From NCBI GenBank assembly GCA_964023275.1, contig OZ029927.1, forward strand, positions 13,554,222 through 13,618,221: a stretch of DNA of 64,000 nt, read 5' to 3'. Source of the stretch: Norana najaformis. Its lineage: Eukaryota > Annelida > Clitellata > Crassiclitellata > Hormogastridae. The notes beneath the pieces are model-generated. The model was not told the origin of the DNA. It saw nothing but the letters and a program-made list of their open reading frames with translations, and searched no databases. Shown here piece by piece: positions 3,201 through 64,000 of the stretch; positions within the stretch are counted from its first letter, which is position 1, and every line of letters begins with the position of its first letter. The position numbers and the translations under genes are program-made.

Positions 3201-5399
3201 TGAAGTAAGAATTAGAAAATCTAAAAAGCCTAGTTTTCGAATAACACATAATTTTCTGTCACCTTACCTCATTCAGTGCATTTTATAAATGTTAATCGAA
3301 ACAACAAGAAAGGAAACTCACTTCTCTTTCATCATAAATTTTTTCAAGGAATGTGCTTAGTTCTACCGCTTCAGCCACCAATGCCCGGCAGACGGCCTTG
3401 TAGTGACTGGCAGCATCAACGCTGTTCTCCACCTGGTCTACACAGATCTATAAATAGTGGCAAGACGTGCAGTAGTAACAAAGGCGCTATATAAATTGTC
3501 TTATCATTATTATTATTATTAAAGTAGCAACACAAAAACGTACGTTTTCATCCAAACATTTATTCAACACCTTTCTGGACCTCTCCAAAGTCACTGGGCA
3601 ATGATGCATAAAAAAGGCTCACTTGTGCCATCATGAGAATTTCAGCACAGCTGAGGTGGATCGAAATTCCTGGAATGTTGCCTAGCAAAGCAACCTGCGA
3701 TATGAACTCCTTGGCCTCTTTTCCCTAAGCACTTGATAACTATTCTACTCAGTTGTGATTCTGTTTTGTCAGGTCGGGGCGCCTCTGATGAATTTCTTTC
3801 AAAATGGTGCTGTATAAATTTGCGATTAAAATAACAAAAAAAATTACAAATGCATATGTACAAACAGAAAGCAAGTATAAGTAACAAGTGCATGTGAGAA
3901 ATTCTTTAAACTACATAAATAAATATATAAATATATAAATGTCAGGACAGATCTACAGAAATGAATCCACACCTTAACGACTTGACTGAGGCTGACAAAC
4001 TTGTCGCCATTTTCTTTGTCGTCTGTGTCATCTTCGATTCCTTCGTCACCCTCGACGTCTCGATCAACAGGTTGCTCGTCAGCACCACCGTTTGTCATCT
4101 GCTCAATCAGCTGCTCTAGAGCAGGGGTCAATCTCTGCTCCTCTGTCTCGCTTAGGCCATAGTCAAGCGCTTGAAAGATCATCACACCCAGAGCTCTGAC
4201 CAACTGTCACAGAAAACACAAACATCATCTTAAAACAGTTTACATATTATTATCTTTATTGTTTATACCTGAAGTAAATAGATTCTATCAGAAGAGACAA
4301 AAGTTTTAGTAGTTTATTCCAAAAAGTACATAAACTATCCACGTGCATCTGACAGCAACCAATTTTTACCAGTAACCCTCCACCAAAATGGTCCCTGCAT
4401 GCACACCTTAATGCACAATTATTGCTCTGCAACATCAACTAATGTCTTGTGTACAAGGCAGTGGTACTACGTACATGCAAGTAAGAAATTAATACAAAAT
4501 TTAAATAATCCTACAACTGCTGTCTGATAGCAGAATGATATTAGATGGTATACATCTAGAATCATTCTACCCATACCATACTACTTTCCACTATTCACTT
4601 ATTAAAAAATTAGTGTACTGTATATACCTGTTTCTCTGCTTCTGCTGAATCCAGAACTGCAAAAGCATGAAAATGCGACCATAAGATTCATGAAACGCAT
4701 AATTTCTAAAACACTAAAAGAAGCAAAAACGACATTTGCCAACAATCAAATATTTTGTCAGCAGCAGTCAGTGCATATTAACAACTAAGGTGTTTCACTG
4801 AAGTAGTTCTTGAAACATGTTCTACTGCATCTATAACACTCAGAAACTGACCTCTGCATAACAGTACAACTCTTGCACCAAACAGTAGGAAACAATACAC
4901 ATCTGGCATTGTAAGGACCACCTCAATTTCATTAGGTTTTTTAAACACAAAGATTAAGAAATGAGTTGTTAAATTCCAAACGGCTCTTACTAGAGCTGGT
5001 GTAACCATTGACGGAGAAAATGTTGCCATCCGGGCCCAGCAGAACTGACTGCGGACAGACCATTTCGGACATAGTGCCTTTCAAGTTGGCGTCTGAAGCA
5101 TGAGGTAAGGGTAATATAGCATCGTTGTTAGCTTTACTGTTTAAGGCCTCATACATCTGGTCGCCATCATCGCCATCATCGCCATCCGACAAAACCGAAC
5201 TATTTATGAAGGAGTTTGTTCCACCGCCCGTCGATAAAATATCGGCAGTATTTTGATCAGCCGACCGATCGATAACGCTGCTACCAGTTGGGCCTCTAAG
5301 GTACTTCGCGCACTGATAGCAGACGGCCCACGCCTGTTCTTCACTAATTGGTGCATTAAAAGCTTCGAGAATCTTTTGTAGAGATAGATTTTCCATCAT
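289..5399 (-). CDS. SPIRE: Spire-type actin nucleator, N-terminal half (partial)
   Basis: Nine minus-strand exons splice in one frame with GT-AG borders: 5399-4991, 4656-4628, 4203-3973, 3432-3322, 2872-2798, 2064-1906, 1483-1394, 812-701, 396-289, about 441 residues, continuing off the left edge. Spire nucleates actin on vesicles together with formins. The first exon opens the KIND domain ([11 protein letters not shown]), which continues in exon 3 ([16 protein letters not shown]) and exon 4 (HYKAVCRAL). Exon 6 carries WH2-A ([13 protein letters not shown]) and WH2-B ([15 protein letters not shown]); exon 7 carries WH2-C ([12 protein letters not shown]); exon 8 carries WH2-D ([15 protein letters not shown]). 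All four WH2 motifs are thus present. The Spir-box and FYVE-like zinc finger expected downstream lie outside. The start is one of two adjacent ATGs at 5399/5396. The KIND domain contains an acidic, Ser/Asn/Gly-rich insert (DGDDGDDGD). Family assignment is firm; paralog not resolvable. Confidence 0.95.
2938..3130 (-). mobile_element. SINE-like element with TTAGATTAG tail
   Basis: On the minus strand this reads through ACTTGAAGTGA-like, CATCAACTGATGCCTTGCGC and TAATGGGGCTGTAGAAGTC into a TTAGATTAGATTTGATTAG tail. It aligns by eye with 38510-38665, 56880-57030 and 59095-59185. It sits in a Spire intron. Confidence 0.6.
3755..3832 (+). mobile_element. LINE family 2 3' tail fragment
   Basis: GTCGGGGCGCCTCTGATGA followed by TGGTGCTGTATAAATTTGCG matches the 3' UTR of the LINE at 20960-21960. 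Non-coding relic in a Spire intron. Confidence 0.55.
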
Positions 5400-6653
5400 T
5401 TTGGCTGTTTAAACACGAGATCGTTATGAAATTCCGTGATTTTTCGACGTTTATCACACTTTCCACAGATCCATGGCCGCCTTCTTGTATCGCCAACTAT
5501 GAATAATTGATTTGTAGCACAGACTATATGTTTCTACTCAGATTCAACGACTAATCAAACGAGACATGCATATTCTAATTTACGATTGAACTAATTATTC
5601 GTGTTGGCATAAAAAAAGTAGCGTCACTGTATCATATTTCCACTTAATCCCATTTGCAGGTAGTCTAAACTGATGCAAAGTCATAAAAACTATTCTTAGT
5701 ATAGAATGACCGCGTGAAAGCGATTATTCGTATTTAGTCAACTCCTAGATAGCGTGACTGCAAAATATGTAATAAAGTAGTGTTAACTCTAACATGTCCT
5801 TAAAGTGTGCTTAAAGAGTCTAAACAGAGAGATTGTAGTAAATTTCAAACTTCAGCTTTGTAAAGACAGAGTCTAAAATTATATACCAGCTTGTAACTTT
5901 TGCGTTTTTAGCGTATCAAGACAAAATGTATAAAAATAGATTAAGGTGGCATTGTTATAGACAACAGCACACTATGAAGAAATGTATATGACCATATAAA
6001 AATTACAGGGATTCTAATATTAGTATCTTTTGATTCACCAATATAAACTCTTGTATGTTGTGTTATGTTATTTGAGTAAAATTCGGGAACAGCTAGCCTT
6101 GTGTCAAACTGAGACATGAATAAGAAAAAGATCGAATGCACAAATTTCGCCGAGGCTTGTAAATTATATTTCCTATATTATTGTATAGTGTATTGGTGTA
6201 AATCATACAATGCTGTAGAACATCACCAGGTTCGTACTTATTGTGCATAAACTAATTTTTACTCCCTATAGGTCTAGAATATTCACAGTGCTAGTATGAT
6301 TGACATTTTTCTTCAGTTTTCTTCTTTGTGGGTGCTGAATATGTTGCTTTCAATGCTTTGATTTTATTGTTGACGAGGTCCTTGATTCACAACGAATGAA
6401 TAATTTATACTTGGATTTTCACTTCAAATAATAGCGTTATTGTAATTAAATGTGGTGGGTAGATTTAATATTGCGCTTAAGGATCAATATCATGGATAAG
6501 CTCTAGCGCTAAAGTATCGCCACCCATCGCCATCTGCTTTTGGCCCCAGCAACAAAAATGGCGCGATGTAAACACAGTCGTTATGCGGGTTTCTGTTAAT
6601 AAGGGACAGTAAACAACTTTCTGTTAAAGGAACATATATGTATAACTTTCGTC
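5400..6653. promoter_or_regulatory. divergent intergenic region between Spire and CNBD1-like genes
   Basis: About 1.25 kb separates the Spire start codon (minus strand) from the CNBD1-like start codon (plus strand), so the two promoters must lie here or in unseen 5' UTR exons. The sequence is AT-rich with no convincing ORF, TATA box or CpG cluster that I can point to. Calling it a shared promoter is inference from the head-to-head arrangement. Confidence 0.4.
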
Positions 6654-25400: not shown

Positions 25401-27324
25401 TGCCATTTTAACTCACTTTGTACAGGAGAAGTCCTTTGTATTGCTGAATTAGTAAATTTCTAGCATTTTTATCAATTATTACAAATAAATCCATGCTAAA
25501 GTGAAATTTAGACTATTTCAAAAGCACCATTCATGTTAAACTAAATCTGAACCTGATCTGTTGATTATGTGAAAATAGTTGAACTTAACAAGAAAGTGAT
25601 GTAAGGTTTTGTTTCCTACTGTACTCTAGCTCTAGGATTACCTTGACTAGCTCTAGGATTACCTTGACTAGCTCTAGGATTACCTTGACTAGCTCTAGGA
25701 TTACCTTCACTAACAGACAATCTCTTTATTCATTAAGACAGTCCTTGATTGTGATAATGACATGCTTAAGATTGTGCTTTAAGTTATCTGAGGTTGAGGT
25801 CTCCGTCAGAAGAACCAAGTCCATTTTTTTCCAAAATTTAGCTAACTGTGTTACTAATTAGGGCATCTGATGGACTACATTATAGTAGTCTGATGTTCCA
25901 TGGAAGAAGACAAGAGGTCGGGTAAACTCTGTTATTAATTTCTTTGTACACTGGAAGAACCAACTAAATCCAAAAGTAGTTTCATGTTTGAGTTCCCTTT
26001 TAAACATTATATGTTGCTTTTGTTAATATTCATAATGTTGCAGCTACGGAAAATCATTACCTTACATTACAGCATCTAAGTAGTTAACCATTACCTTTAC
26101 ATTACATTCCTAAGTGCAGATGTATTTTGATTTCCAGGTGCTGCTGGTTCATGTGCAACTGTTCTTCATGATGCCGTAATGAATCCTGCTGATGGTTAGT
26201 AAAAACTGCTCAAATTCTTGATAAGAAATCCTGGCACAGAAACTGTTTTAAGGTATATGGATGTTTCAAGTAAAGAAACCTTAATTAACTCCGCCACTGC
26301 CTTGTTTGGGGGGTAGTGCCAGTCCCAAGCCTGGATAAAGGAGGAGGGCGATGTCAACAGCCTTTGATGCCAAAAGATGTCATCAAACTGAGAAACTACT
26401 ACTAAAGAAACCTTAATGGTGCTCTTGAGCACAGTTACAGCTTCCCAGTCCATTTAACAAGCTCAAAGGCTTGTTAACAATTATACAAAGTGAACTGATG
26501 TGGTTATTATTACGGTACATTCTGTCCTTTCCTGGATTTGAAACCATTATGCAGTAAAACCTCCATAAAGTACTGAAAGAGCTAATAGATCCTTACAAGT
26601 AGTGCCTTAACAAATACCAAACCAAACATACGTGGAAGTAATTAAAATCTAATTCCTTAAATCATAAACTTCATTAAATTTATATCTAGTTGTGCTGAAA
26701 ATAATAGTAATAGTTTAAACTTGAAATATGTGTATTGTTGGTGTTACAGTGATAAAACAGCGTATGCAGGTCTTTGGAAGTCCCTACAAAAACTGGCTGC
26801 ACTGCGTACGTGTCATCTACTCGAAAGAAGGTCTGATCGCCTTCTACCGCAGCTACGGCACTCAGCTCTCGATGAACATCCCATTTCAGAGTCTCCATTT
26901 TATAATGTACGAATTTAGCCAAGACATTCTCAACAAGGACCGCCACTACAACCCCAAGACGCACATGATTTCTGGCGCCATGGCCGGGGCAGCAGCTGCC
27001 GCAGCCACAACACCCCTCGACGTCTGCAAAACCCTCCTGAACACGCAGGAGAAGTGTGCACATATGACAAACTCTAATGCCATTTCAGGCTTCTTCGAGG
27101 CCTTTCGAACTGTTTACCAGTTTCGTGGTGTCAGAGGATTTTTCAACGGGATTAGCGCAAGAGTTATCTATCAGATGCCTTCCACAGCGATTTCATGGTC
27201 TGTCTATGAATTCTTCAAGTCATATATAACACAGCATAAGCATCATGCAACATCTGAGGACGAATTTGTGACTTCTTCAGCTCCGGTTGTTAAGGTCCAA
27301 GTTCATGCAGCTGTTACGGACTGA
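22454..27324 (+). CDS. SLC25A28/37: mitoferrin, mitochondrial iron carrier (SLC25A28/37 type), complete
   Basis: Four exons join in frame: 22454-22570, 24760-24979, 26138-26194, 26750-27324; 969 nt, 322 residues. Mitoferrins carry iron across the inner mitochondrial membrane for haem and Fe-S synthesis. The three carrier repeats are visible by their signatures PLDCVKTRMQ, PADVIKQRMQ and [10 protein letters not shown]. Mitoferrin-typical stretches include [18 protein letters not shown] at the start of repeat 1 and [19 protein letters not shown] in repeat 2. The ATG lies in AAAATGG. Donors are GT, but that of exon 1 (GTTCGT) is weak. The third exon encodes only 19 residues. The N-terminus is short compared with vertebrate paralogs, which fits an invertebrate single-copy mitoferrin. 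An AATAAA follows 60 bp after the stop. Very confident of family; vertebrate paralog equivalence is not meaningful. Confidence 0.97.
23400..23565 (+). mobile_element. tRNA-derived SINE, family A
   Basis: A decayed tRNA-like head (TAGCCAAATGTTTAGAGC, B-box-like GATCTGAGCCTCCAC) is followed by TTGTGTAGGGACCT, TTACAATTGCTCAGTGCCAT and a (TAA)n tail. Its body matches 57147-57338. It lies in mitoferrin intron 1. Confidence 0.7.
24109..24180 (-). mobile_element. LINE 3' tail fragment, minus orientation
   Basis: Matches the 3' end at 10676 (motif GATTTCTACAGCGCCCAACG on plus) but truncated to about 70 bp. In mitoferrin intron 1. Confidence 0.6.
25627..25710. repeat. 21-bp tandem repeat, 4 copies
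   Basis: Four near-identical copies of TAGCTCTAGGATTACCTTGA plus C in mitoferrin intron 2. Confidence 0.95.
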
Positions 27325-41262: not shown

Positions 41263-44200
41263 ATGGACAACGGTACACAAAGGACAACCGATCGTGACAA
41301 TGAAGTGGTCACGCTGTGCAAGGGAACAGATGATGAATTGGTGAGCCTACATTCTGCACTTGGATTTTTTTCAATTTCACTTGTTTTTTGGTGTAATTTA
41401 GATGTAAATATTATAAACATACCATAAAAATATTTCTCTGTTATGGTAGTCTTAGTATTTTTCATGACATTCAAATATACGTGAGTAAAAATTTTTAAAA
41501 GAGAACGAAAAACGGTTCAACTAGAAGTTTAAAAGGAATGAAACTTTTATTACACTAGAAACCGCCATAAATCAAGCTGTCTTTTGAAGCCACTTCAAGA
41601 ACCACCTTATTATGCATTCATGTTGTTATGAGTTTATTTTCTGTAACTGAGCTAATTTTAGGTTCCTTGTTTGTGACCGTTTGATATCAGAATTTACAGT
41701 ATGATGAAGAGTGTTATATTGAATCCCTGGTGTAGTTTGTCAACCATGGGACCCAGTGAGCTGTTGGTGATCACTTATTCCAGGAGGTGGTGCTATACAA
41801 ATTTCTGATGGCACTTCATTTCAGTTGTGTATTGGGTATAGAAGAGCTCGATGGAAGGAAGTCTTGTTTTGGATCTTTGCTGTGCTCACGCTTGGTCTTC
41901 TGTTTCTCGTCACACGCTGGAAACCGGTTTGGCGTGTCATTCTCACCAGCACAAGATGTCGGCTCAGTTGTGCGGAGATGGTTGTTCTGAAGGTAACTTT
42001 ACAGATATTGAATATCTTTTCATCAAACTGTCACCTTCAAGGTCTAATTTTTTACTAGAAAGAATGCATCTGTTACCAGCTCAGTCCTCCATCCGTTTTC
42101 AAGTATGTTAAAACAAGTACCATAGTGAGTTGGGAGTCTGAACAGATGTCTGTTTGTTGGACTTCTGTGGTCCTGTTTGCATCTTGGTTGAATGATTCAT
42201 TGCCTTCTTGACCTCAGTTCTGAGGAGTTCTTTATCGGCCTGTAAACACGTGTTACATTTACCTTTTTCTCATATAAAGTGCTGTAATGTAATGGCATTC
42301 CTGTAATGGCATAGGTTGAGGACTCATCGTCGGCGGTGGCCTGACGGAGGAGAAGCAAAGAAGAAGAAGAATGTAATGGCATGTAATGTAAAGCAGAGAT
42401 AAGAAATTTGTGTACTTACATTGATGTGATGCTTTGGGCTTGACGACCAATAAGTACCACTGGATAAAAAAAGTTTTGTTTTAGACCTTCAAAAAGTTGA
42501 GTATGGCATTGAAATGTATTTGCTTCTCAATGACGAATTTTTGCTTTTTTTCCTGGTGTGCAGGATTCAAATTCATGCACTTTCATTGAAGAAGTTGTCG
42601 TCTGCGATCTCTCAGAGGAATCTTTGTGAGTATAACGTTGTAATTGTAAACTTTAAAATTCCTTAAGTGCGCCTTAAATGCCAAACTCTGGGCAAAACGA
42701 AAAAAAAGTACCATGACTCTGTTAAAGCTTTCCTTGTATCTTGTAACAGCTGTTTTATCAGTTAATTTGGATCAGCTAATTGCATGCTAATGAATTCTGC
42801 TGTTAATTATAATTTGGTCTATATTTACTTTATCTTTATATTTGCGTTATAATATTATTTACTCGGTCTTTATATTTACTTTATCAGAAATGCCAAGTAC
42901 TCGATGCTAGCCGGAGAGTCTGGTCAGAAAGATGTCAGGTTCATTTGCTGCTTTTTTGATGTTTATAAATAAGAAATTCAGAACAATGTAAGGTAATAAC
43001 TACTGTACATATATTTTATTATTACCGTATAGTAGATTCCAGGAGCGCATAGCATGACATAGGAAAGGCACTATTTCCTTGCTGTGGACCTTACCATGAA
43101 AATAGCTTACTAAATTCTGCTGTTGTTTGCAAACAGTTTGCCTGATGCCATTATTATTAGTTGAAGTTTAATTAGTTGTATTGGTGACATTAGAGCCACC
43201 TGCCCTTGACAAAAGATTCATGTTTTTATTGATTTCAATTTGCAAACATTTGATTAGGTTTGGCTCTGAATCGACATTCTCTGCCATGCTTGTTTTGGTA
43301 TGCTTATTGGACATATTCAGGTCATTTTATTAGGAAACGAAACGATAGTTACAGACACTACATCATCATTTTCAAAAGCTTTCTTCATCATTCTGCTTAT
43401 TCTCGCAGGTTACTTAACCCAGAATTCATTATTTGAATATCTGTACTGTCTGCCGTAAGCATCGTGATGCCTTTTCGAGTGCTTTCAGCATCTGTCCTGA
43501 GAGGCCTGAAAGAGAATGTATTTCTAAGCATTTTCACTTTAGGAATAAATTTATGAGCCGTCCACTTAAGGAATAAATTTATGAACCGTCCACTTAAGGA
43601 ATAAATTTATGAGCCGTCCACTTAAGGAATAAATTTATGAACCGTCCAATTAAGGAATAAATTTATGAACCGTCCAATTAAGGAATAAATTTATGAACCG
43701 TCCACTTAAGGAATAAATTTATGAACCGTCCAATTAAGGAATAAATTTATGAACCGTCCAGTTAAGGAATAAATTTATGAACCGTCCACTTAAGGAATAA
43801 ATTTATGAACCGTCCACTTAAGGAATAAATTTATGAACCGTCCAATTAAGGAATAAATTTATGAACCGTCCAATTAAGGAATAAATTTATGAACCGTCCA
43901 ATTAAGGAATAAATTTATGAACCGTCCAATTAAGGAATAAATTTATTGATCTGCTGTTGACAGCTTAGAGGGAATGGTGGAGTACGCTTACGTGAAGGAG
44001 GAAAGATTTATTGCCAGCTCTGATGATAGATCAACACTTACTTCAAAAGGAGTCAGTAAATTTAAAGTCTTTTTTGTTTCAAACTTTAAAAGTATTATAT
44101 GTTCTGCAGGTGGTTTGTGTTGAAGATTCTAACTGTCTGTAAAGTACTTAGAGCTTCGTAATTATCAATTTTGTAATTGTGTCAGAAATTTTTATTAGCT

Positions 44201-50200: not shown

Positions 50201-53200
50201 ATGAAGGTGTCAAGCTGCTACTAAAGATGCATTCTTAAAGGCAATTTGGTTTTCAGAAGCCTTGCAAAGCTTTATCATTGCAGCCCAAAGAGAACCAAAA
50301 GAGTAGCTAAATGAATACTTCATCTAGCAAGGCCTATGCCTGCTATAGAGTGGTTTTGAGCAACAAATTGACATTTGAAAAGAAGAGCAGTCCACTTAAC
50401 TAACTCAGTAGGCAGCCATGGGTTTGAAGTACTAATGACTTAATTTTTCTTTGCCTCGGCATACGAGAGTGGGTGGCCAGAGGGTGCTAATGGAGCAGAA
50501 ATCTCGAAATGTCTTTCTCCCAGGGTGATATCAATGCCCAACCTCTGTGTTGACAGTCTATCTCACTAACCAAGCTTACCCAAGTTGGCATTTGATTGGA
50601 TTTAAATTATCAGTAATCTGATTTTATCATCATTAAAAGTTGTGTTGATATTAATAGACTGGTACCCTGACTGAAGAAGGTTTGGACCTATGGGCTGTAA
50701 TTCCAGTGAAGGATAAGAAATTTCTTCCAGCCGTCCAGGAACCTAGCGGTCTCCCACCTGACTCCAAGATGGTGGTCGGCATGGCAACCTGCCACTCCTT
50801 GACGATCATCAACAAAGAGCTGAGCGGGGATCCGCTGGATTTGAAAATGTTCAATTCAATCAACTGGGTAAGACCATAGTCATTTAACATTTGCCCTGAT
50901 GTTCTGGTTCCCTTTTGTTTTAAATTTGCATTTACGGGCAAATTATTCGCTTGTTCATTTTAATTCTTTTTACAGACAAATTTAGAATTATTATAAACTA
51001 GTACTTTTGTTGTAGGCTGTTTAATTTACAGAGTATTTTAGAAGTTAGTACTTCAAACCCATGAGGATGATAGGATGATAATAATGTAAGTTTTTTATTA
51101 AAAGAATTCAGAATAATTGTAAATTTTTATTTTCCTTTGCAATTTCTACAGTATTGCAGAATTGGAGGATATTAATTTAAGTGTTAAAAAAAAAGAATTC
51201 AGAATAATTGTAAATTATTAGTTTCTTTTTGGGATTTTTAATTTCTACAGTATTGTAGAAGTGGACGATGATAATTATTTCAGTTTTATCGAACTATACC
51301 ACTTTTGACTCAAGATAGCACTTGTGGTGTTGCTTAATCTGTTGTTAGGTTTTGGAAGAGGCAGGGCGAGAGTCCACGAAATTTGATGTTCTAATGCCCA
51401 CGATCGTCAAACCGATTATGATGGATGCTTACTGCATTGAGCAATTAGACGATAGCTCTGTAAGACACGGAGTAATAGTTATCTCAGTTACAATTGAATA
51501 GGCGCTATATAAATGTGTTATTATGATTATGATTGCAGGTACTGTTAGCTAGGTCTTAGCATTGTAAATTTCTGACATTTGTTCATAAGCCATAACTTCT
51601 TTATAGCACTCTTGATTAAAATGTCAGTTTTGGTATAAGACAGCAATATGGAATCAATTCCAGTAATTCAAGTTCCATGCCTCTAGTTTAACTAAGTGTG
51701 ATGTCTAGCACATTAATCTGTTACTACTACTACTACTACTACTACTACTATCAGTAGTAGTAGGCCATATTGTTATCCAAAATTTAATTCAACTTTAGAC
51801 TTGGACTTCGACTGTCTCATTTGTATCACTACATTATGTTGGAGTCCTATTTTGTTATTTTAAGATTGAGATACTGCCTCCATTTGAAATTGGAATTGTC
51901 CGGCAGTTTACGTTTTCGTCTGGACTTCAGCGGATGAGTGTGATTGTCCGAGTTCTGGGTTCGGATCATATGGATGTCTACGTTAAAGGAGCTCCGGAGA
52001 AAATTGCTGCCCTCTGCAATCCACAAACACGTGAGTGTCTCTTTTTGATGCCGTTGAGTCTCTATATACAAGAACTGTATAAATGCTACTTGCAGATGCT
52101 TTGGAAAATACAAGAAGCTTTTCAATGGCAGTAATGTAATCTAATTGTTTTAAAAGAGAGATGTGTACGGTCAGTTTGAAGTAAATGAAAATACGTTTGT
52201 AAATATCGTGTTACTAAGTGGCAAATTGGTTCTTGATATTTCAGTTCCTGATGACTTTCATGATGTCTTGCAAAATTATACGGCTCAAGGCCTAAGGGTG
52301 ATCGCCATTGCTTCGAAACCTCTAGACAGCAAGATCCCCTGGCACCAGATTCAACGTATATCAAGGTCAGAGGAGTCTTGATTGAACTGGAAAAATTTAT
52401 TATTTTGAAAAAAGTTGTTAATTTTAAATCAGTGTTTGGTGTATTTCAGATTTTGTCGTCTTAGTTTTGTAGCAACAAATATTATTTTAGCGACTACTTT
52501 ATATTTGATCGAAGTTAACCGGATGACAGAAGCAGCTTTATTATATCATGTTAAACTTAAAATCATTCAAATGGCACATGAAGTTTTATTTATTTTATTG
52601 TTGTAAATCTTTATTTGTTGCTTCACATTTACAAAATTTATTTTGTTGTTGTAAATCTTTAGTTGTTGCTTCACATAGCATACATATCGTTTAGACTATC
52701 AGTTTTCAAGTGTGAAGTTGAAAAGGTTTCTTCATTTACGATGGGGATCTTTAATTTTATTCCTTGAAAAACTTTATAGACATCACTAAAAGCAGCTGGC
52801 CTAATATAATTTGCAAGGTTAATTGGATTGAAAGTGTAGGCAAATAATTACCATAAGGTAAACTGTGCAGATGTCACACCGTAGTTATACTGTCATTACT
52901 GTCACTGTTTCATAAATAAGTGCTTTCCGAATGTACGCAACTTAAGCAAAAATTTAAAAATGAAAACAGCTTTTATGAGCAACGTCTACTGCGCCCCCAT
53001 CTGTGTTGTTTCGTATTTCAGCAGCCTAGCTAACAAAATGCCATGATTTGATACGACTGTTTTTCAGAAGGAAGCAAACAATTTCTGTGCATTGTGAATA
53101 ACTAACTGTTGTGCATTGACGACTAGCAGTTTCCTTTTCTACATTAATGGAGCAAGCAATGTACTGTGTGCACAGGGATGTTGTTGAGTCAGAGCTGTCG

Positions 53201-56200: not shown

Positions 56201-59200
56201 TGAAACGGATGAACCAGAAAATAGGATGAACTGTGAAAAGTTTAGCATTTATCAGGGAGCCCTATGTCACGTATCTTACAACCCAATCTAATTTTTGCCT
56301 TTGCGATTTACCTTAATTAAATGCTGGTCCTTACAAACTGGTTATTGGTGCGGTATAGAAATCGTGAGTTCATAATTGCCATTAACGCTGTGATTAATGC
56401 CTTTGTGGATTAAAATCTCAGTATGATTTCCATTGCTGATTCTGATACATGATGTAATGTAACAGACATTTATAAAGTGCCTTTCAAGCACCCCCCAAAA
56501 GCGCTAAATGTATGTATTTCTCTTGCAGAGAGGGTAGAGCCGCTCTGACAACGTCTTTTTCCGCCTTCCGTTTCATGGCTCTATACAGCATCATTCAGTT
56601 CATAACCGTGATCATTCTCATCTCGGTAAGTTTGCAACTTTTGTGTGCAGCAGATTTGGGTTAATTGATGCATGGCAGTTAGTTGAAACGTTTTGAAATA
56701 GCATTGCTTGTTTTGTTTATTAAAGTGAATTTGGTTCAGGTGTAATTTGTATATATTTACAGGTTATCATGGCTGGGTGGTTGTATACTGAATGAAACTG
56801 CGTGTGGTAGCTTCTGTTGTGTGATTTGCAGAATACTATAAATTTACCTACTTATTTACGCATTTGATTACTAGCTTGATCTCTGATTTTTCTGACCCAT
56901 CGGATTTCAGCTGAGCTTCTGCAGTAGATTACAATTTTTGAATATGGTTTTACTTGAAGCGACCACCAACGATGCCTTGTACACTATGATATTTATGTAC
57001 ATTATGGCACTATAGAAATCATTAGATAAAGCTACATTGACAAATTAATGCAAGCATATTGTAATATGCTAGCTCAGTCGGTAGAGCATGAGACTCTTAA
57101 TCTCAGGGTCGTGGGTTTGTGCCCCACGTTGGGCGCAAACGTTTGTGGGGCACGGTGGCGTATTGGATAGAGCGCTCGGCTTGTAACGTGGAGAATACGG
57201 GTTCGAGCCTTCTCCCTTGAGATGGTTACTGTGTAGGGACCTTGAGCAAGTCCTTAACTCACAATTGCTCGGCGCCATCGATTGATGCCTAGTCATTAGA
57301 TAGTGGCGCCTAATAAATGCAGAAATAATAATAATAATACATTGCAAAAATTTCTGTGCAGATAAAAATTATGGCCAAGTTTCTTTGTTTTATAGGACAA
57401 CAGTAAGCTGAGTGATTTCATGTTCCTGTATGCTGATCTATTGATAACAACAGTTCTTGCTGTTTTAAGTAAGTGGATGATTTTCACTTATGTGCATGTG
57501 TTTATCTGGCTATTTATATAGCACCTTTTCTTGTTGACCGATCTGTGTTTTGATGGTCTAGTTTTTGTTATATACATCACGCCTATGCCTAAGTAATTGT
57601 ATTATTATATTCCTAAATAATCACTATGCTGTATTTTGTTTTTTATAGTTATGCAAATAGGAAACTGAAAACAAATCCTGTAGTTTTTATTAAAGAATAA
57701 TTTACTTACTCCACCTTGTGGCCTATTTTAGTATCAGCCCCCAGTTAGTTTTGGCAAATGGTTCATCTACATTTAACACCTATGTTAGTGTAATATAAAT
57801 TTTAAAAACTACTTGGCAGCTGTGATTTTGCTGTGATGTTTAGATATTCAGATTATCACTGATCAGTTTTGCTGATTACTGACTTCTTGGATCTTAACTG
57901 GACCATTGTAACAGATTATATGGACTGGAGTTTCACTTTGAATTTGCATTTTGTGGTAACTGTGCTAAAAAGGTTCGCAGATTAGAATTGATTAAAAAGA
58001 ATATTAAGTTCAGTGAGCGATATTAATGATGTAGTGTTTTTTACATTTTAGTGGGACGAACTGCGTCTTATGGCCAACTCGTTGCAAAACGTCCAACAAG
58101 CAGTCTTGCGTCGGCAAATAACATCTTCGGAATTATAATTCATATCTTGTTCATTCTGTCATTCCAGCTTTTTGGCTTCTTCTATACACGTTTCCAGCCA
58201 TGGTATGTGATGGCCTTGCATTATACAGATTTATTTTCGGTTTGGACTGAATGATAGTAACTAAATGAAAGTTCACTCTGGTCGGATTGGTACTGTGTGA
58301 CAAATGTACATTTGATAGTCACTCTCTTGGGTTTGTATTCAAGAGGTGCTTGGCCAGTGCTTCCTGGTTTAGTGGAATGTTAGATCATTGAGTTCGATGT
58401 CTGTCATTTAAGGCATTCCACTGGGTGATCGGATAACAAGGCCCATCAAGTAACTTGTATGAAACAAATAAAAAAAAAACTTGTGAACTGGTACATCTGG
58501 TCTGTCAAGAACCGATGGCAAGAGACCTGACAGTCGGACCGTTATTCTATGGCCTTCAGGTCGCAGTCTACTCTGAACAACAAGCAAGCTCAAGGTCGTG
58601 GTCGTAGATACCGTGGCAACCTCCTACTTGTCCACAACCTCTGTGTTGGGCAGTGGATCTGCAGAACTTGCTGCTGGTGGAAAATGCGCAAAGGCAGCTT
58701 GACAGTGCATGCCCATCTTTTCGTTTCACCGACCTTTGAGACACTTGGCCCACTCAACAACAGTTGCATGGGTTTTCTCATGGACCCATGGCATCTCTCC
58801 CGCATTTGCCGTTACTCAAGAAATGCAAGCTATCTCATTCAACAGTCACTGAGTCAGTTTTTGCAAATGAGATGGTCATCCGGTTGCTTTTGCAACACCT
58901 TGTTCTGCCTTATATTGATGAGAGGTAGTTGTTTCAAATGCATTATCTCCTCCAGAATGATTGTACACAGCCCTTAGGTGTGTCACGCCTTAGGGACCAA
59001 AAAACTATGGTATACTTAATAGTTAGAGTGATCTACATTGGTAGGTTTGAAACTTGTAATTGATCTTTATAATGATAATCGTAATCATAACTGTGAGCTG
59101 TTGTATGTCACCTGAAGTGACCATCGATTGATGTCCTGTGCATTATGAAAATGATGCTGTTGAAGCCTTTAGATTAGATTAGATGAACTGTGCATTTTTC

Positions 59201-60248
59201 GTCAGCCCAGAACTAGAACTTACTAACAGAAATTCTTTCCTTTTTTGTTGAAAGGTACGAGACTCCAAAATGCGGTAATAACGATGGAGAGCCGTGCACC
59301 AAATCAATGGATACTACCTCCGTTTTCTACATCTCATCATTTCAGTATCTGATGTTGGCCTTTATTTTATCGAAAGGACCGCCATACCGGAAACATATCT
59401 GGACTAACAGTAAGGCTTCTTGCAGTTGAGTCTTCACAGTAAAAAATCCCGTGATAATCCTCAAACCCTCTTAATGATATGGGGAGAGTATAAATGGCTG
59501 GTACTACTTGCTGTTCCAGTTGAATGGTCCTTCAAGTCTCAGGACTTTGTCTCTGGGGGACTGTTCCTGATGAGGGTGAATAAATGAATGTAAATATACG
59601 TGTTTTTCTATAGTCTTGACCCTGCTGATTTTTCAAAGAATTAATCGGGTGAGATCCTTGCGTTTGAATGGGTGCCATGCCATTTAAGATCCCCATGTAT
59701 GGACTGTGCTAGCCCAAGATTAAAATCTCTGAAATAGTGGTAATAGCTTTATCTGATATTGTGGTCTGTTCAAGTCTAATTTTTCATGTGTGCATTTCCT
59801 TGCTAACCTTAGTCGCATCTTTCACAATCAGTTGCAAAGCCATATTATACAGATAATCTTTCTTATATATATATTTATATGTTATAATATAATCCTTTTA
59901 TATACATATTTGCATATATGGTATAAATCTTGCTTTATGATGTTTTAGTTCCATTTCTGATTTGGTTGGTGCTTATGACGGCCCTCACGCTGCTCCTGGT
60001 GTTGTATCCACCTCAGTTCCTGCAGAACATTTTCCTGGTATTTATTAGATGTTAATTTTGTTTAGTACATTTGCAGTGCATTGACAAAATGGTCAAAATA
60101 AAAAAGTCTGATTTAAAAATTAAGATTTATGAAGGTTTTCAAGAACAGAGTTTTTTAGACATTAGATTTTTATTTGCATTTTGGATTACATATGATAATG
60201 ATAGAAAAGTCACTATATGGGCCATGAATAAATTAGGTTGATTTGGTA

Positions 60249-60325
<77 letters not shown>

Positions 60326-61000
60326 GTATCTAAATTTGATTTATGACTTCTAGTCATTTTTGTGTTTGCAGCTTGTTGTATTCCCATCATTTGCATTCAG
60401 CTTGACGATGCTTGGCATATCAGCAATCAACTTTATGTGTGCGTTGTTGTTTGAAGTAAGTTACCGGCTTTTTCTCTTAATGTGAAACCCCTTTGATATT
60501 GCTTTCCATGTCTGCTATTTTAAAAAATTCTCGGCAACTCGAGTCAAAGTTTTCGGATGTATCAGACTTGAGTCAGTAAAATTTTTTACTTACAGAAAAA
60601 TATGGAAATGTTTGTTTTAGGATTTTATTATTCATAATCACATTAAAAGGCTGTTCCTTTTTTGTCTTAGTTTAAAACAACTTTGATATTAAAATCGTTG
60701 TTTGCAAGTTTAAAAATTATCAGTAAATCTTGAGTCAGTGTTACCAGATGTATTATTAAACAAGACTTGATCCAGTTTTTCACTTTAGCAATATCTGAAA
60801 TTTTGTTTTAGGAGTTTATTATTCACAATCACACATTTAAAGGCTGCACCAGAAAACTGTGCTGCACTAAGAAGAAGCAGAAACTTTACAAGACTCTGCG
60901 AAATGAAAGTTGTGTGGACAGTTCTTGGCCACCAGTTGGCGAAGTTACAACTGCCCGGGATAGTAATGCTATTTGGCACATTGGCCTTTACATTAGCTGA
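41263..61000 (+). CDS. ATP13A2/3: P5B-type ATPase, ATP13A2/ATP13A3 group, complete
   Basis: P5B ATPases export polyamines and cations from endolysosomes. 29 coding exons join in frame: 41263-41340, 41825-41992, 42564-42625, 42888-42938, 44661-44726, 44963-45040, 45679-45748, 46483-46617, 47360-47429, 47981-48112, 48264-48425, 48869-49026, 49593-49781, 50658-50867, 51349-51459, 51865-52030, 52245-52365, 53176-53300, 53970-54151, 54758-54868, 55207-55286, 55827-55979, 56529-56625, 57396-57468, 58052-58202, 59255-59409, 59949-60037, 60372-60455, 60812-61000; 1171 residues, normal length. Seen: N-terminal hydrophobic hairpin (exon 2), LTGES (about 302-306), the P5B signature PPALP (about 429-433), DKTGTLT with phospho-Asp472, KGAPE (about 621-625), TGDN (about 716-719), GDGAND (849-854), then C-terminal membrane segments. 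ATG 41263 (GCCATGG) preferred to in-frame ATG 41245; a stop lies upstream at 41215. One intron needs a GC donor. Paralog unresolved. Confidence 0.96.
43541..43946. repeat. 28-bp tandem repeat, about 14.5 copies
   Basis: Unit AGGAATAAATTTATGAACCG plus TCCACTTA, with few substitutions, in P5B ATPase intron 4. Every unit contains a plus-strand AATAAA hexamer. Direct, contiguous copies without spacers. Confidence 0.97.
44727..44728 (+). other. GC splice donor, P5B ATPase intron 5
   Basis: The exon ends GTG AAA CTC AG and is followed by GCAAGT. Joining to the exon at 44963 gives VKLSGLDHG in frame. No GT donor nearby keeps the frame. Confidence 0.9.
46206..46345. repeat. (TTA)n-rich microsatellite
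   Basis: Imperfect TTA/ATT trinucleotide runs in P5B ATPase intron 7. Confidence 0.9.
48545..48640 (+). mobile_element. LINE family 2-like 3' tail
   Basis: AAGTGCCTCTGAGGAGTTTA and TGGTGCTATACAAATTTCGT with a TTACAGCTACAAG end match the family 2 LINE tail. In P5B ATPase intron 11. Confidence 0.5.
49370..49440 (+). mobile_element. LINE family 2 3' tail
   Basis: GGGTCGGGAGCACCTCTGTT through AGGCACTTTATAAATCTCAA and TTACAGTTACAA closely follows the tail of the LINE at 20960-21965. Confidence 0.7.
51098..51275. repeat. about 92-bp tandem duplication, diverged
   Basis: Two copies sharing AAAGAATTCAGAATAATTGT and AATTTCTACAGTATTG in the P5B ATPase intron before exon 51349. Confidence 0.85.
51721..51763. 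repeat. (CTA)n run ending in a hairpin
   Basis: CTACTACTACTA... runs into TATCAGTAGTAGTAG, its own inverse complement, so this trinucleotide run can fold back on itself. Confidence 0.8.
56007..56102. repeat. two adjacent short inverted repeats
   Basis: TGTGAAGGATTG pairs with CAATCCTTCACA around a 23-bp loop, followed closely by GAAACTTC/GAAGTTTC. Both stems are perfect. In the P5B ATPase intron directly after exon 55827-55979. Confidence 0.7.
56880..57030 (+). mobile_element. SINE-like element with TTAGAT tail
   Basis: CCCATCGGATTTCAGCTGAG, TTACTTGAAGCGACCACCAA, CACTATAGAAATCATTAGAT follow the copy at 38510-38665. In the P5B ATPase intron before exon 57396. Confidence 0.6.
57063..57135 (+). 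pseudogene. tRNA-Lys(CTT) relic
   Basis: From TAGCTCAGTCGGTAGAGCAT through anticodon loop CTCTTAA to the 3' acceptor strand GTTGGGCG this follows a eukaryotic tRNA-Lys(CTT). The 5' acceptor strand is replaced by aatatgc, which cannot pair with the 3' strand. The T-loop TTCGAGC is changed to TTTGTGC, damaging the B box. It is therefore a pseudogene or SINE head rather than a working tRNA gene. Confidence 0.8.
57147..57338 (+). mobile_element. tRNA-derived SINE, family A
   Basis: A tRNA-like head has an A-box-like TGGCGTATTGG, an anticodon-position CTTGTAA and an intact B box GGGTTCGAGCC. The body TTACTGTGTAGGGACCTTGA, AATTGCTCGGCGCCATCGAT and tail (AAT)n match 23400-23565. It follows the tRNA-Lys relic directly. 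Confidence 0.75.
59095..59185 (+). mobile_element. SINE-like element 3' part with TTAGATTAGATTAG tail
   Basis: AAGTGACCATCGATTGATGT, ATTATGAAAATGATGCTGTT, AAGCCTTTAGATTAGATTAG. Same family as 38510-38665, 5'-truncated. Confidence 0.65.
59640..59702 (-). repeat. dispersed repeat, family D, inverted copy
   Basis: Reverse complement of the CATGGTGCCCATTCAAACG ... ATCTCACCC motif seen at 12975 and 32880. Confidence 0.55.
60252..60321. repeat. (TA)n microsatellite
   Basis: About 70 bp TA run in the P5B ATPase intron before exon 60372. Confidence 0.97.
60491..60870 (+). repeat. about 190-bp tandem duplication spanning the terminal exon start
   Basis: CTTTGATATT begins both units (60491 and 60681). 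Each unit then shows GAGTCA-rich sequence, GATGTAT, ACTTGA, TTTGTTTTAGGA and TTTATTATTCA. Unit 1 contains an exon-like segment at 60621; unit 2 contains the acceptor and first part of the real terminal exon (60812). Confidence 0.8.
60621..60686 (+). pseudogene. truncated upstream copy of the P5B ATPase terminal exon, possible alternative last exon
   Basis: An acceptor TTTGTTTTAG is retained and the frame entering from exon 60372-60455 (phase 0) is open for 21 codons to a TGA at 60684-60686. It starts DFIIHNH, compared with EFIIHNH in the true exon. If used, it would replace the 62-residue C-terminus by a short hydrophobic tail. Either a dead duplicate or an alternative terminal exon. Confidence 0.6.
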
Positions 61001-62110
61001 TTTTTGATTTGTTTATAGTATTTTTTAATCAATTTTAAAGTTAATATAATTCACCACTGTGTATTATTTGTGAACAAAAAATGTTTTGATCCTTCTGAGT
61101 CAGAATTTGAGTCGTAAAACAGAAGTTGTTTGGTAGTTTTCAGGTTTAGTAGATTGTCATTTTCTTCCAATTCCAGTTGTCTCTGTGTAAAGTTCTGACT
61201 ATTCTGGTTTTAAACGTCTGGAGCTTTCGATATCATTTTGACTTTCCTGGTCGGTTTAGACTTCACCTGATGTACTGAACCATGTGGTTTGATTCCTAGT
61301 AATTTGTTACCTGACTTATTGATCCATGTGGTTTGGATGGTACCTGTCTTATTGAACCATTTGGTTTGTATATTACCTGACATACTGAACCTTTTGGAGA
61401 AAGTTTGAGTAATTTGGTTTGGATTTTCCTGGACTTTTGAAATTGTGAATTTGCTGCCAGGTAATTAGGTGCACGAATGTGATACATAACATAGTGCCTT
61501 TTAAAAATTGCTCATTTGTTACTAGGAAAATACATTTGTTTGTGCCACTGCAAGTATGATGTTGAAATGTCATCCACTTCTGTATGGATTTTGAAAAGTA
61601 GTTGCAGTTTCAACAACAGGCACATGTGCTGTTAGTTTTAGCCTAAAGGGTGCTACAGATTGCCTTCTGATAAGCTAATCTAAAGATTAGTAAAGATGGC
61701 TTGTGCACCAATGTTTATTCTAAAAATCCAAACTGCAAGGCCTGTATTGTGCATACCTGTAATTATCTACAGAGCGTTTGGTTGAACAGTTGCAGATGCC
61801 TTGTGTATTAGATACCAACTAGCCAGATTATACTGCATCTCATTAAGATGCTTTGTTCGTGGTTTTCAGTGCAAATCATGTTCCAGCGCTACGAACTATG
61901 CAGTAAATATCAACATCATTTTGTAAAGTACAGTATAACTGAAGCCCTACAGAAGGCTTTCTGCAAAGTACATATGAATTCCACAAATTGCTCAATTTAG
62001 TGATATTTTTGTGATACTCTTCTGCATTGTGGTAGTAAATGGATTAGCTAGACAGATTTACAAACAGTGCAGTTTGTTTAAACAATAAAAGCCTATATGT
62101 AAAGGCATAT
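61001..62110 (+). other. 3' UTR of the P5B ATPase with polyadenylation signal
   Basis: AATAAA at 62084-62089 is the first good plus-strand hexamer after the stop, giving a UTR of about 1.1 kb. A degenerate tandem repeat of about 39 bp (61275-61400: TACCTGACTTATTGAxCCATGTGGTTTG) lies inside. Confidence 0.5.
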
Positions 62111-62559
62111 GGCTCATGACAATGGTTGATTGAATCTGTTGTATATAATTCCGAGGCTTAGATATAAAGGTACTACATAAATATGCAGCTATATAACATA
62201 TTGTAAGTAGTGCAGATGTCATGTCTTTCTGTGTTTCGTCATCTCAGAGTAAACCACGTGGTTGATCCGCCATGACAGTTTTGCTTTCATGTGTACAAAT
62301 CTGTGTCGTTTAACAACATAAGTTGTCATTTAAAAAGCCTGCAGTATGTTATTAATTAATGTGTATTTATAAGCGAAAATGAAGTGTTCATAGTTGTTTT
62401 GTAATGTAAACGCAAAATAATATCGAGAGTAAACATTATCATTCCATACACGCTATGTAGCTAGTAAGTTGAAACTTAATTAGGATTTATATTTTGTAAT
62501 TGTAATTACGACAATTAATACAGCAACCTGAGTTGCAAGCTACTTCTAGGATGCTTTTA

Positions 62560-62715
62560 AAGTGTCATTTGTCTGCTCAAGAATTAAGAGTGCCTTGCCA
62601 TGTGGATTTTCAGTTTTGAAGGCCCGAATACTTTTGGCCTTCTGAACCGATGCCGGAAGGTTGTACCACGTGCGTGGGCTGGCCTCCCAAAAACGGCCTG
62701 ATAATTTGTTTTAGC
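62560..62715 (-). mobile_element. LINE reverse transcriptase C-terminal fragment
   Basis: The minus strand encodes FWEASPRTWYNLPASVQKAK followed by SIRAFKTE, typical of the end of an L2/CR1-type polyprotein. Short, 5'-truncated. Confidence 0.7.
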
Positions 62716-63057
62716 CTTAGCTGCGTGCTCGTAAACATCGGCAGATTTTGATGGGTAAATACAATATGAAAACTGAATTTTTGCAACTATAATCTATGGT
62801 TGTGATGGCATATAACATCGACTTATCAATTTTAATAAATGTTATATGTATTTAACGCAAACGAATTGGATTGAAACTCCGAAACGTAGATCTTGATATG
62901 TATTCTTGTGCCCAAGTCTTGTAACATACAAGTAAACATTGTTGATAACTGAAACTGGTTTTGGATGTAGTTGAACTTAACAAATGAATTTTCGAGACTG
63001 AAGGTTTTGTGGCCTGTGATGGTTCATATAATTATTTGGCAGTTACAGTTGTATTAA

Positions 63058-63140
63058 AATTGTTTATTATTCACAGTCACACATTTCAAGGTTGTGTCAG
63101 AAACACACTGTTGCATTCAGAAGAAGCAAAACATGATTGA
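63058..63140 (+). pseudogene. decayed downstream copy of the P5B ATPase terminal exon
   Basis: TTTATTATTCACAGTCACAC, ATTTCAAGGTTGTGTCAGAA and GAAGAAGCAAAACATGAT align with the start of exon 60812, with substitutions and a small insertion. The same frame ends at TGA 63138-63140. No matching acceptor precedes it. Confidence 0.65.
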
Positions 63141-63189
63141 CATAAGAGTTAATTCAAAAAGTCGTAATTGGTTCAGCACCCTAAGCATA

Positions 63190-63212
63190 TAAGTAAGTAA
63201 GTAAGTAAGTAT
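63190..63212. repeat. (AGTA)n microsatellite
   Basis: AAGTAAGTAAGTAAGTAAGT run. Confidence 0.9.
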
Positions 63213-63730
63213 ATTCTTTATTAACCAATAGCTAATCGCACATCGGTTTATAGCCAACTTATATAAACTTATGGCATGTGGACCAGTATGTATGTACGCA
63301 TGTAGACCTATAAAGACACTAGCTCGTTTTAAGTTCCTCTTAAAAGTCTCTCTAGCCTATAAATTAAGATTAGGCTATGAAGCAGAAGATGAATCCTCTT
63401 TGTTTGCAGATCTCGTCAAAACCGTAACTGTGTTGTTGGGAGCACTTGTTGATATCAGTTTGTACCATTCCTAAAAAATCAGAGCAGTTTAAAAATAAAA
63501 TATACATTTACAACAATAGATGCATTTAAAAGGAGTTTCAAAATAAACAAAACCAGTTTCAAAATAAACACTGATTCTCTCTCCGCTTAACCCACTCTGC
63601 AAATCGACCAGGATCAGGAAGTGATCCAACAACTGGCTTCTGGTGCTATATGATTTGATTTAGCCCTGCATGTTTCATTTGTTTAGCAACAAGGTATTTC
63701 CTAAGATACATTACAAGGTCTATATACTGA

Positions 63731-63880
63731 TCGTAATTGTAATCCTGAGATTTCTACAGCGCCCAACGAAAACCACATCACTGGGACCAGCTTATTCACA
63801 GGCGCTCAGTCAAAACAAAATCGATAGGCAAAAAGGTTCGGTTCCAGGTAAAGATTCAAAAGACAGTGACAGTCTATGCC
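63731..63880 (-). mobile_element. LINE 3' end, minus orientation
   Basis: GATTTCTACAGCGCCCAACG, CCAGCTTATTCACAGGCGCT and AATCGATAGGCAAAAAGGTT match 10676-10830 and 33040-33120. Tail-side ATCGTAATTGTAATCC lies at the left edge. Confidence 0.65.
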
Positions 63881-64000
63881 AGTATACGATTTATATGGGA
63901 GGGGACACGTCCCCCACTTTGTTCAGACTATCTCTAATTGAAGATACATTTTTGCCATACATTTGGCTTCTGTATATTTATAATTATATATGTCTTCTTC

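Follow-up and report, generated by a model that had tools for sequence, protein, structure and literature searches.

We analysed a window of 64,000 nucleotides from Norana najaformis, positions 13,554,222 to 13,618,221 of contig OZ029927.1 (GCA_964023275.1; genome of 608,420,607 bases in 17 contigs). Its forward strand carries what looks like an ATP13A2-like P5B ATPase gene, and by sequence the product looks like an animal polyamine pump. Pfam and ATP13A2 matches establish homology to P5B pumps in both the catalytic and the C-terminal regions. The Pfam P5-ATPase family was matched at 41771–42055 (E 7.7e-16), and exon-sized ATP13A2 matches of mixed strength, some strong and some weak, extend from about 48.0 kb to 59.4 kb. 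The DK-TGTLTE motif, which we take to be the phosphorylation motif, was found in the ATP13A2 match, spread across two exons. The upstream part of the gene region also holds a 28-nt minisatellite (43541–43946, 14.5 copies, 97% matches). Elsewhere in the window, there is a reading frame of a mitochondrial carrier protein at 26725–27324 (Pfam Mito_carr, E 5e-37), and on the minus strand, at 3844–5408, two reading frames correspond to consecutive portions of the KIND domain (E 2.8e-19 and 2.9e-13).

The features at the 3′ end of the gene are collected in Table 1. The real last exon has 189 nt and is spliced in phase 0 after the exon ending at 60455. The joined product of the last four exons was aligned with chain positions 1045–1174 of ATP13A2 (E 3.2e-20), an alignment that takes in the final membrane helices and, as far as the WPP motif, the C-terminal domain. 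Hence, the original prediction, which was made from the DNA sequence alone, had rightly chosen 60812–61000 as the true last exon. Downstream of it, an array of repeats of about 33 nt at 61265–61434 likely belongs to the 3′ untranslated region of the gene.

Table 1 Features at the 3′ end of the P5B ATPase gene, in window numbering
Feature	Coordinates	Strand	Basis
P5B ATPase exon, fourth from the end	59255–59409	+	Splice model; ATP13A2 homology
P5B ATPase exon, third from the end	59949–60037	+	Splice model; ATP13A2 alignment
P5B ATPase penultimate exon, phase 0 end (TTT GAA/GTAAGT)	60372–60455	+	Splice model; ATP13A2 alignment
Tandem unit 1: 5′ part of intron, acceptor, 33 nt of exon copy	60469–60653	+	Alignment; 0/500 shuffles
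Truncated exon copy with 2-nt deletion	60621–60653	+	Alignment
Junction and intron-derived end of the predicted alternative frame, stop 60684–60686	60654–60686	+	Alignment, translation
Tandem unit 2: intron, then nt 1–35 of the real exon	60659–60846	+	Alignment
Real last coding exon: C-terminal cytosolic domain, WPP motif, stop TGA	60812–61000	+	Splice model; ATP13A2 alignment
Separate short local duplication, copy at 64847–64899 (past the window end)	62843–62903	+	BLAST, genome search
Third, decayed exon fragment; acceptor AG absent at the aligned place, frame broken	63062–63131	+	BLAST, shuffles, alignment

A tandem duplication of about 190 bp has its breakpoints 13 nt into the last intron and 35 nt into the 189-nt exon. 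The significance of similarities was judged with 500 dinucleotide shuffles. Units 1 and 2 were aligned with 142 identities, 34 mismatches, and 21 gap columns, and their score of 168 was reached in none of the 500 shuffles (mean 39, maximum 63), which bears out the predicted duplication. The exon and its flanking intron are thus present as tandem copies, yet with just 35 of the 189 exon nucleotides. The true exon had been placed within unit 2; the unit reaches its first 35 nt, but the remaining exon lies outside.

In unit 1, the exon stub consists of 33 nt which match exon nucleotides 1–35 minus 2 nt, and this loss breaks the frame after seven codons. Spliced from 60455, the stub would read DFIIHNH and then leave the exon frame. 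The following 14 residues would be encoded by the last, frame-shifted part of the stub together with the junction and the unit-2 intron, and the stop also sits in sequence derived from that intron. Only seven residues of the 21-residue tail, one of them changed, are therefore in the exon frame; the residues past FIIHNH are not homologous, and owing to the 2-nt deletion, no homologous open frame was found in unit 1. Of the copy predicted at 60621–60686, the intact acceptor and the in-phase open frame with its stop stand, but the exon-derived part ends at 60653.

A third fragment lies about 2.2 kb downstream of the last exon, beyond both AATAAA motifs (62084 and 62834). BLAST matched it to 69 nt of the exon, 60814–60882, with 81.4% identity over 70 columns (E 6e-13 in the window), so that clear homology starts about 2 nt inside the exon. 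In the shuffle test, this similarity scored 105, which 0 of 500 shuffles reached (maximum 74). A separate global alignment counts 58 identities, 9 mismatches, and 5 gap columns. A decayed copy had been predicted at 63058–63140, and it is real and lies at the expected distance, but with clear homology limited to 63062–63131. A local alignment with lenient gaps stretches it to 62977–63165 at the cost of 38 gap columns, in T-rich sequence where the outer limits are uncertain and some intron may have been copied as well. Counted by eye, 8 of 11 positions of the acceptor stretch are alignable, with AG changed to AA and 2 nt inserted. A working last exon at this place is unlikely, given the AA at the aligned acceptor and the broken frame. 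Other AGs occur nearby at 63049 (score 6.5) and 63077 (score 3.8), and the resulting frames, inspected by eye, are not homologous.

The direct comparison of unit 1 with the third fragment was not significant (score reached in 19 of 500 shuffles), as expected, since their common exon part is at most about 33 nt. Chance similarity among AT-rich segments, named beforehand as the finding that would speak against the copies, is hence set aside for two of the pairs, unit 1/unit 2 and exon/third fragment, which outscored all 500 shuffles, but not for unit 1/third fragment.

When the whole genome was searched at the DNA level with 60491–61100, two places were returned, the query itself and the distal fragment (E 8.2e-9), and no further place for this exon and intron sequence; repeat counts from such searches are lower bounds. 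The third fragment as part of a dispersed repeat is not supported, as the genome searches returned one copy. Two repeat-like stretches were noted in its surroundings. About 50 nt downstream, 63182–63250 belongs to a very common interspersed repeat, of which it forms the (GTAA)n-headed end; this repeat has at least 37 other places among the 41 matches listed (93–100% identity; 40 of 1448 candidates scored). The segment 62495–62758 has matches of about 70% identity on two other contigs and is perhaps an old repeat. The claim that the exon has been duplicated more than once is upheld by the tandem pair together with the separate distal fragment, as seen in alignment, BLAST, and genome search. The wording that the last exon exists in three copies was overstated: there is one exon, of whose 189 nt the fragments cover 35 and 69.

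The intact unit-1 acceptor raises the question of use. On one reading, it serves the gene as an alternative 3′ splice site or as the start of an alternative last exon, giving a second isoform in which the 21-residue tail would replace the C-terminal domain. The acceptor is closer to the donor than the real one, and it scores no worse: with a matrix from 18 acceptors of the P5B gene, hand-picked at the edges of matched stretches, unit 1 scored 4.5 and the real site 0.4 (18 leave-one-out scores of −7.5 to 11.0, median 5.0). Of the 1283 AG sites in 41.1–64.0 kb, 10% equal or exceed the unit-1 score and 30% that of the real site. Both acceptors are outscored by four further AGs in the stretch from the donor to the real exon (60748, 60596, 60671, and 60789). 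Thus, the acceptor model neither supports nor excludes the use of unit 1. Folding of the intron and exon was likewise uninformative, as mean unpaired probability (0.29 for unit 1 vs 0.44 for the real site) and 8-mer accessibility (0.026 vs 0.012) point in opposite directions. A search of 59000–64000 against Rfam gave 0 matches at the gathering score.

Downstream of the unit-1 acceptor, the first AATAAA is at 62084, past the real exon, and none was found between the two acceptors. Hence, if used, the unit-1 site would most simply act as an alternative 3′ splice site with an extended last exon. A separate short terminal exon is possible, which would need one of the three ATTAAA motifs between the acceptors (60642, 60688, and 60755). 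These motifs, the in-phase frame that stays open until its stop, and the precedent of tandemly duplicated terminal exons in Drosophila pip, described in part of PMC9013439, favour a functional isoform. The lack of AATAAA, the small exon-derived share of the tail followed by frame-shifted stub and intron, a stub divergence as expected without constraint, and the lost C-terminal domain, whose truncation impairs expression of human ATP13A2 according to passages of PMC8564547, speak against it. We regard such an isoform as improbable.

Of the residues that the stub product has in common with the real tail, the last, H, is aligned to Q at ATP13A2 chain position 1140, a position that is approximate because of an alignment gap just before it, and a unit-1 isoform would lose the C-terminal domain from about this residue onward. 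In the sections of PMC8564547 on this domain, it is described as touching the P domain, and expression is stated to be largely impaired by truncations to 1155, 1160, and 1165 but not by the two mildest ones. The same sections report that the disease nonsense variant Q1135* (Q1140 in the numbering of that paper) has lost autophosphorylation and is impaired in expression. By homology with this distant relative, the predicted unit-1 product would probably be unstable. The duplicated acceptor could then act as a switch: choosing unit 1 would yield an unstable pump without the C-terminal domain, and splice choice would tune the level of the polyamine pump without nonsense-mediated decay, because the stop would lie in the last exon. 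We consider this highly improbable.

The intron halves of the tandem units, with 112 identities and 31 mismatches (31 of 143 positions differ), have a Jukes–Cantor (JC) distance of 0.256 (s.e. 0.048). In the stub, 3 mismatches were observed in 33 nt, and 3.9 are expected if the stub alone drifts while the real exon is fixed, a comparison of low power. For the third fragment and the exon, the JC distance is 0.148 (s.e. 0.051), to be set against 0.128 per lineage for the tandem duplication (half of 0.256); the ages of the two duplications are therefore indistinguishable. The divergence of the stub, within that low power, and of the third fragment fits neutral decay. An assembly artefact was also considered because of the AT tract (60253–60329, 39 repeats) just upstream, but about 20% of aligned positions differ between the tandem units, far above read error or allelic collapse, and the contig measures 25.3 Mb. 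This makes an artefact extremely improbable.

The third fragment might mark the edge of a single tandem duplication that spans roughly 2.2 kb, from about 60814 to 63061. The 61-nt segment 62843–62903 recurs 2.0 kb downstream with 52 of 53 ungapped positions identical and an 8-nt indel, and the genome search returned this pair nowhere else. A single large duplication would explain both pairs: they share orientation and order with offsets of 2248 and 2004, neither was returned elsewhere by the genome searches, and clear homology of the third fragment begins about 2 nt inside the exon. The second pair looks younger, however, as the probability of 0–1 differences is 0.0045 at the divergence of the third fragment and 0.00004 at that of the intron. 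There is also no other collinear match at E < 0.1, and with lenient gaps the third fragment may reach upstream of the exon start, which a single large duplication does not predict. On balance, we find it doubtful.

Local duplications are common here. When the window and the following 10 kb (74 kb in all) were compared with themselves, BLAST gave 19 same-strand pairs with starts at most 3 kb apart and E of 1e-6 or better. Three of these are the exon-copy pairs and the 62843–62903 pair, and several are repeated hits within the same minisatellites. Other worn direct repeats occur in the 74 kb, e.g., 65976–66301/66260–66589. A worn tandem duplication at 51070–51177/51161–51276 (offset 91 nt, 77% identity) lies in an intron of the P5B gene in the exon model. 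As such duplications are common, one clipping the edge of an exon needs no special explanation.

Very probably, then, the terminal exon was copied in part on two occasions, each time by a local duplication, and both fragments decay while the complete exon alone is under selection. A tandem duplication of about 190 bp, from just inside the last intron to about 35 nt inside the exon, would have produced a duplicated intron, acceptor, and exon stub. A second event would have placed the 69-nt fragment about 2.2 kb downstream, either as the margin of a larger tandem duplication or by templated patching in break repair. Selection would keep the complete exon, as its ATP13A2 homology suggests, and leave both fragments to decay; the upstream acceptor may be used at a low level as splicing noise. 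We infer the duplication mechanism and the fragments' lack of function from the DNA. An alternative terminal exon and neutral debris had both been offered as options, and debris is the better supported, given the frame-breaking deletion, a divergence that fits absence of constraint, and the missing C-terminal domain, which the human relative needs for stability. The exon fragments are real, but most likely they amount to harmless debris of the ordinary kind that partial exon duplication leaves.

Regarding known proteins, the last membrane helices and the C-terminal domain with WPP of ATP13A2, for which structures are solved (7m5v and others), can be aligned to the Norana protein. After WPP, 21 residues follow in Norana, compared with about seven in the 1180-residue ATP13A2 chain.

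Among the titles and abstract openings listed by a literature search, and in passages of PMC5837089, there was no report of exon copies in P5B genes, which is no proof of absence. Tandemly duplicated terminal exons with mutually exclusive choice are known, e.g., from Drosophila pip, as presented in part of PMC9013439. In pip, according to that part, exon sequence and adjacent intron are tandemly duplicated at the 3′ end of the gene and the acceptor is duplicated, as seen here. The P5B copy differs from pip, as described in the same part of PMC9013439, in being an incomplete stub with a broken frame and no separate AATAAA. The P5B gene is a clean example of a small tandem duplication that doubles a splice acceptor beside a terminal exon and so provides raw material for alternative C-termini; at present, this material appears to be decaying. 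Pseudo-exons are decayed exon copies or cryptic exons. The fragments resemble them without notable difference, as exon-like pieces in an intron or flank whose signals or frame are damaged.
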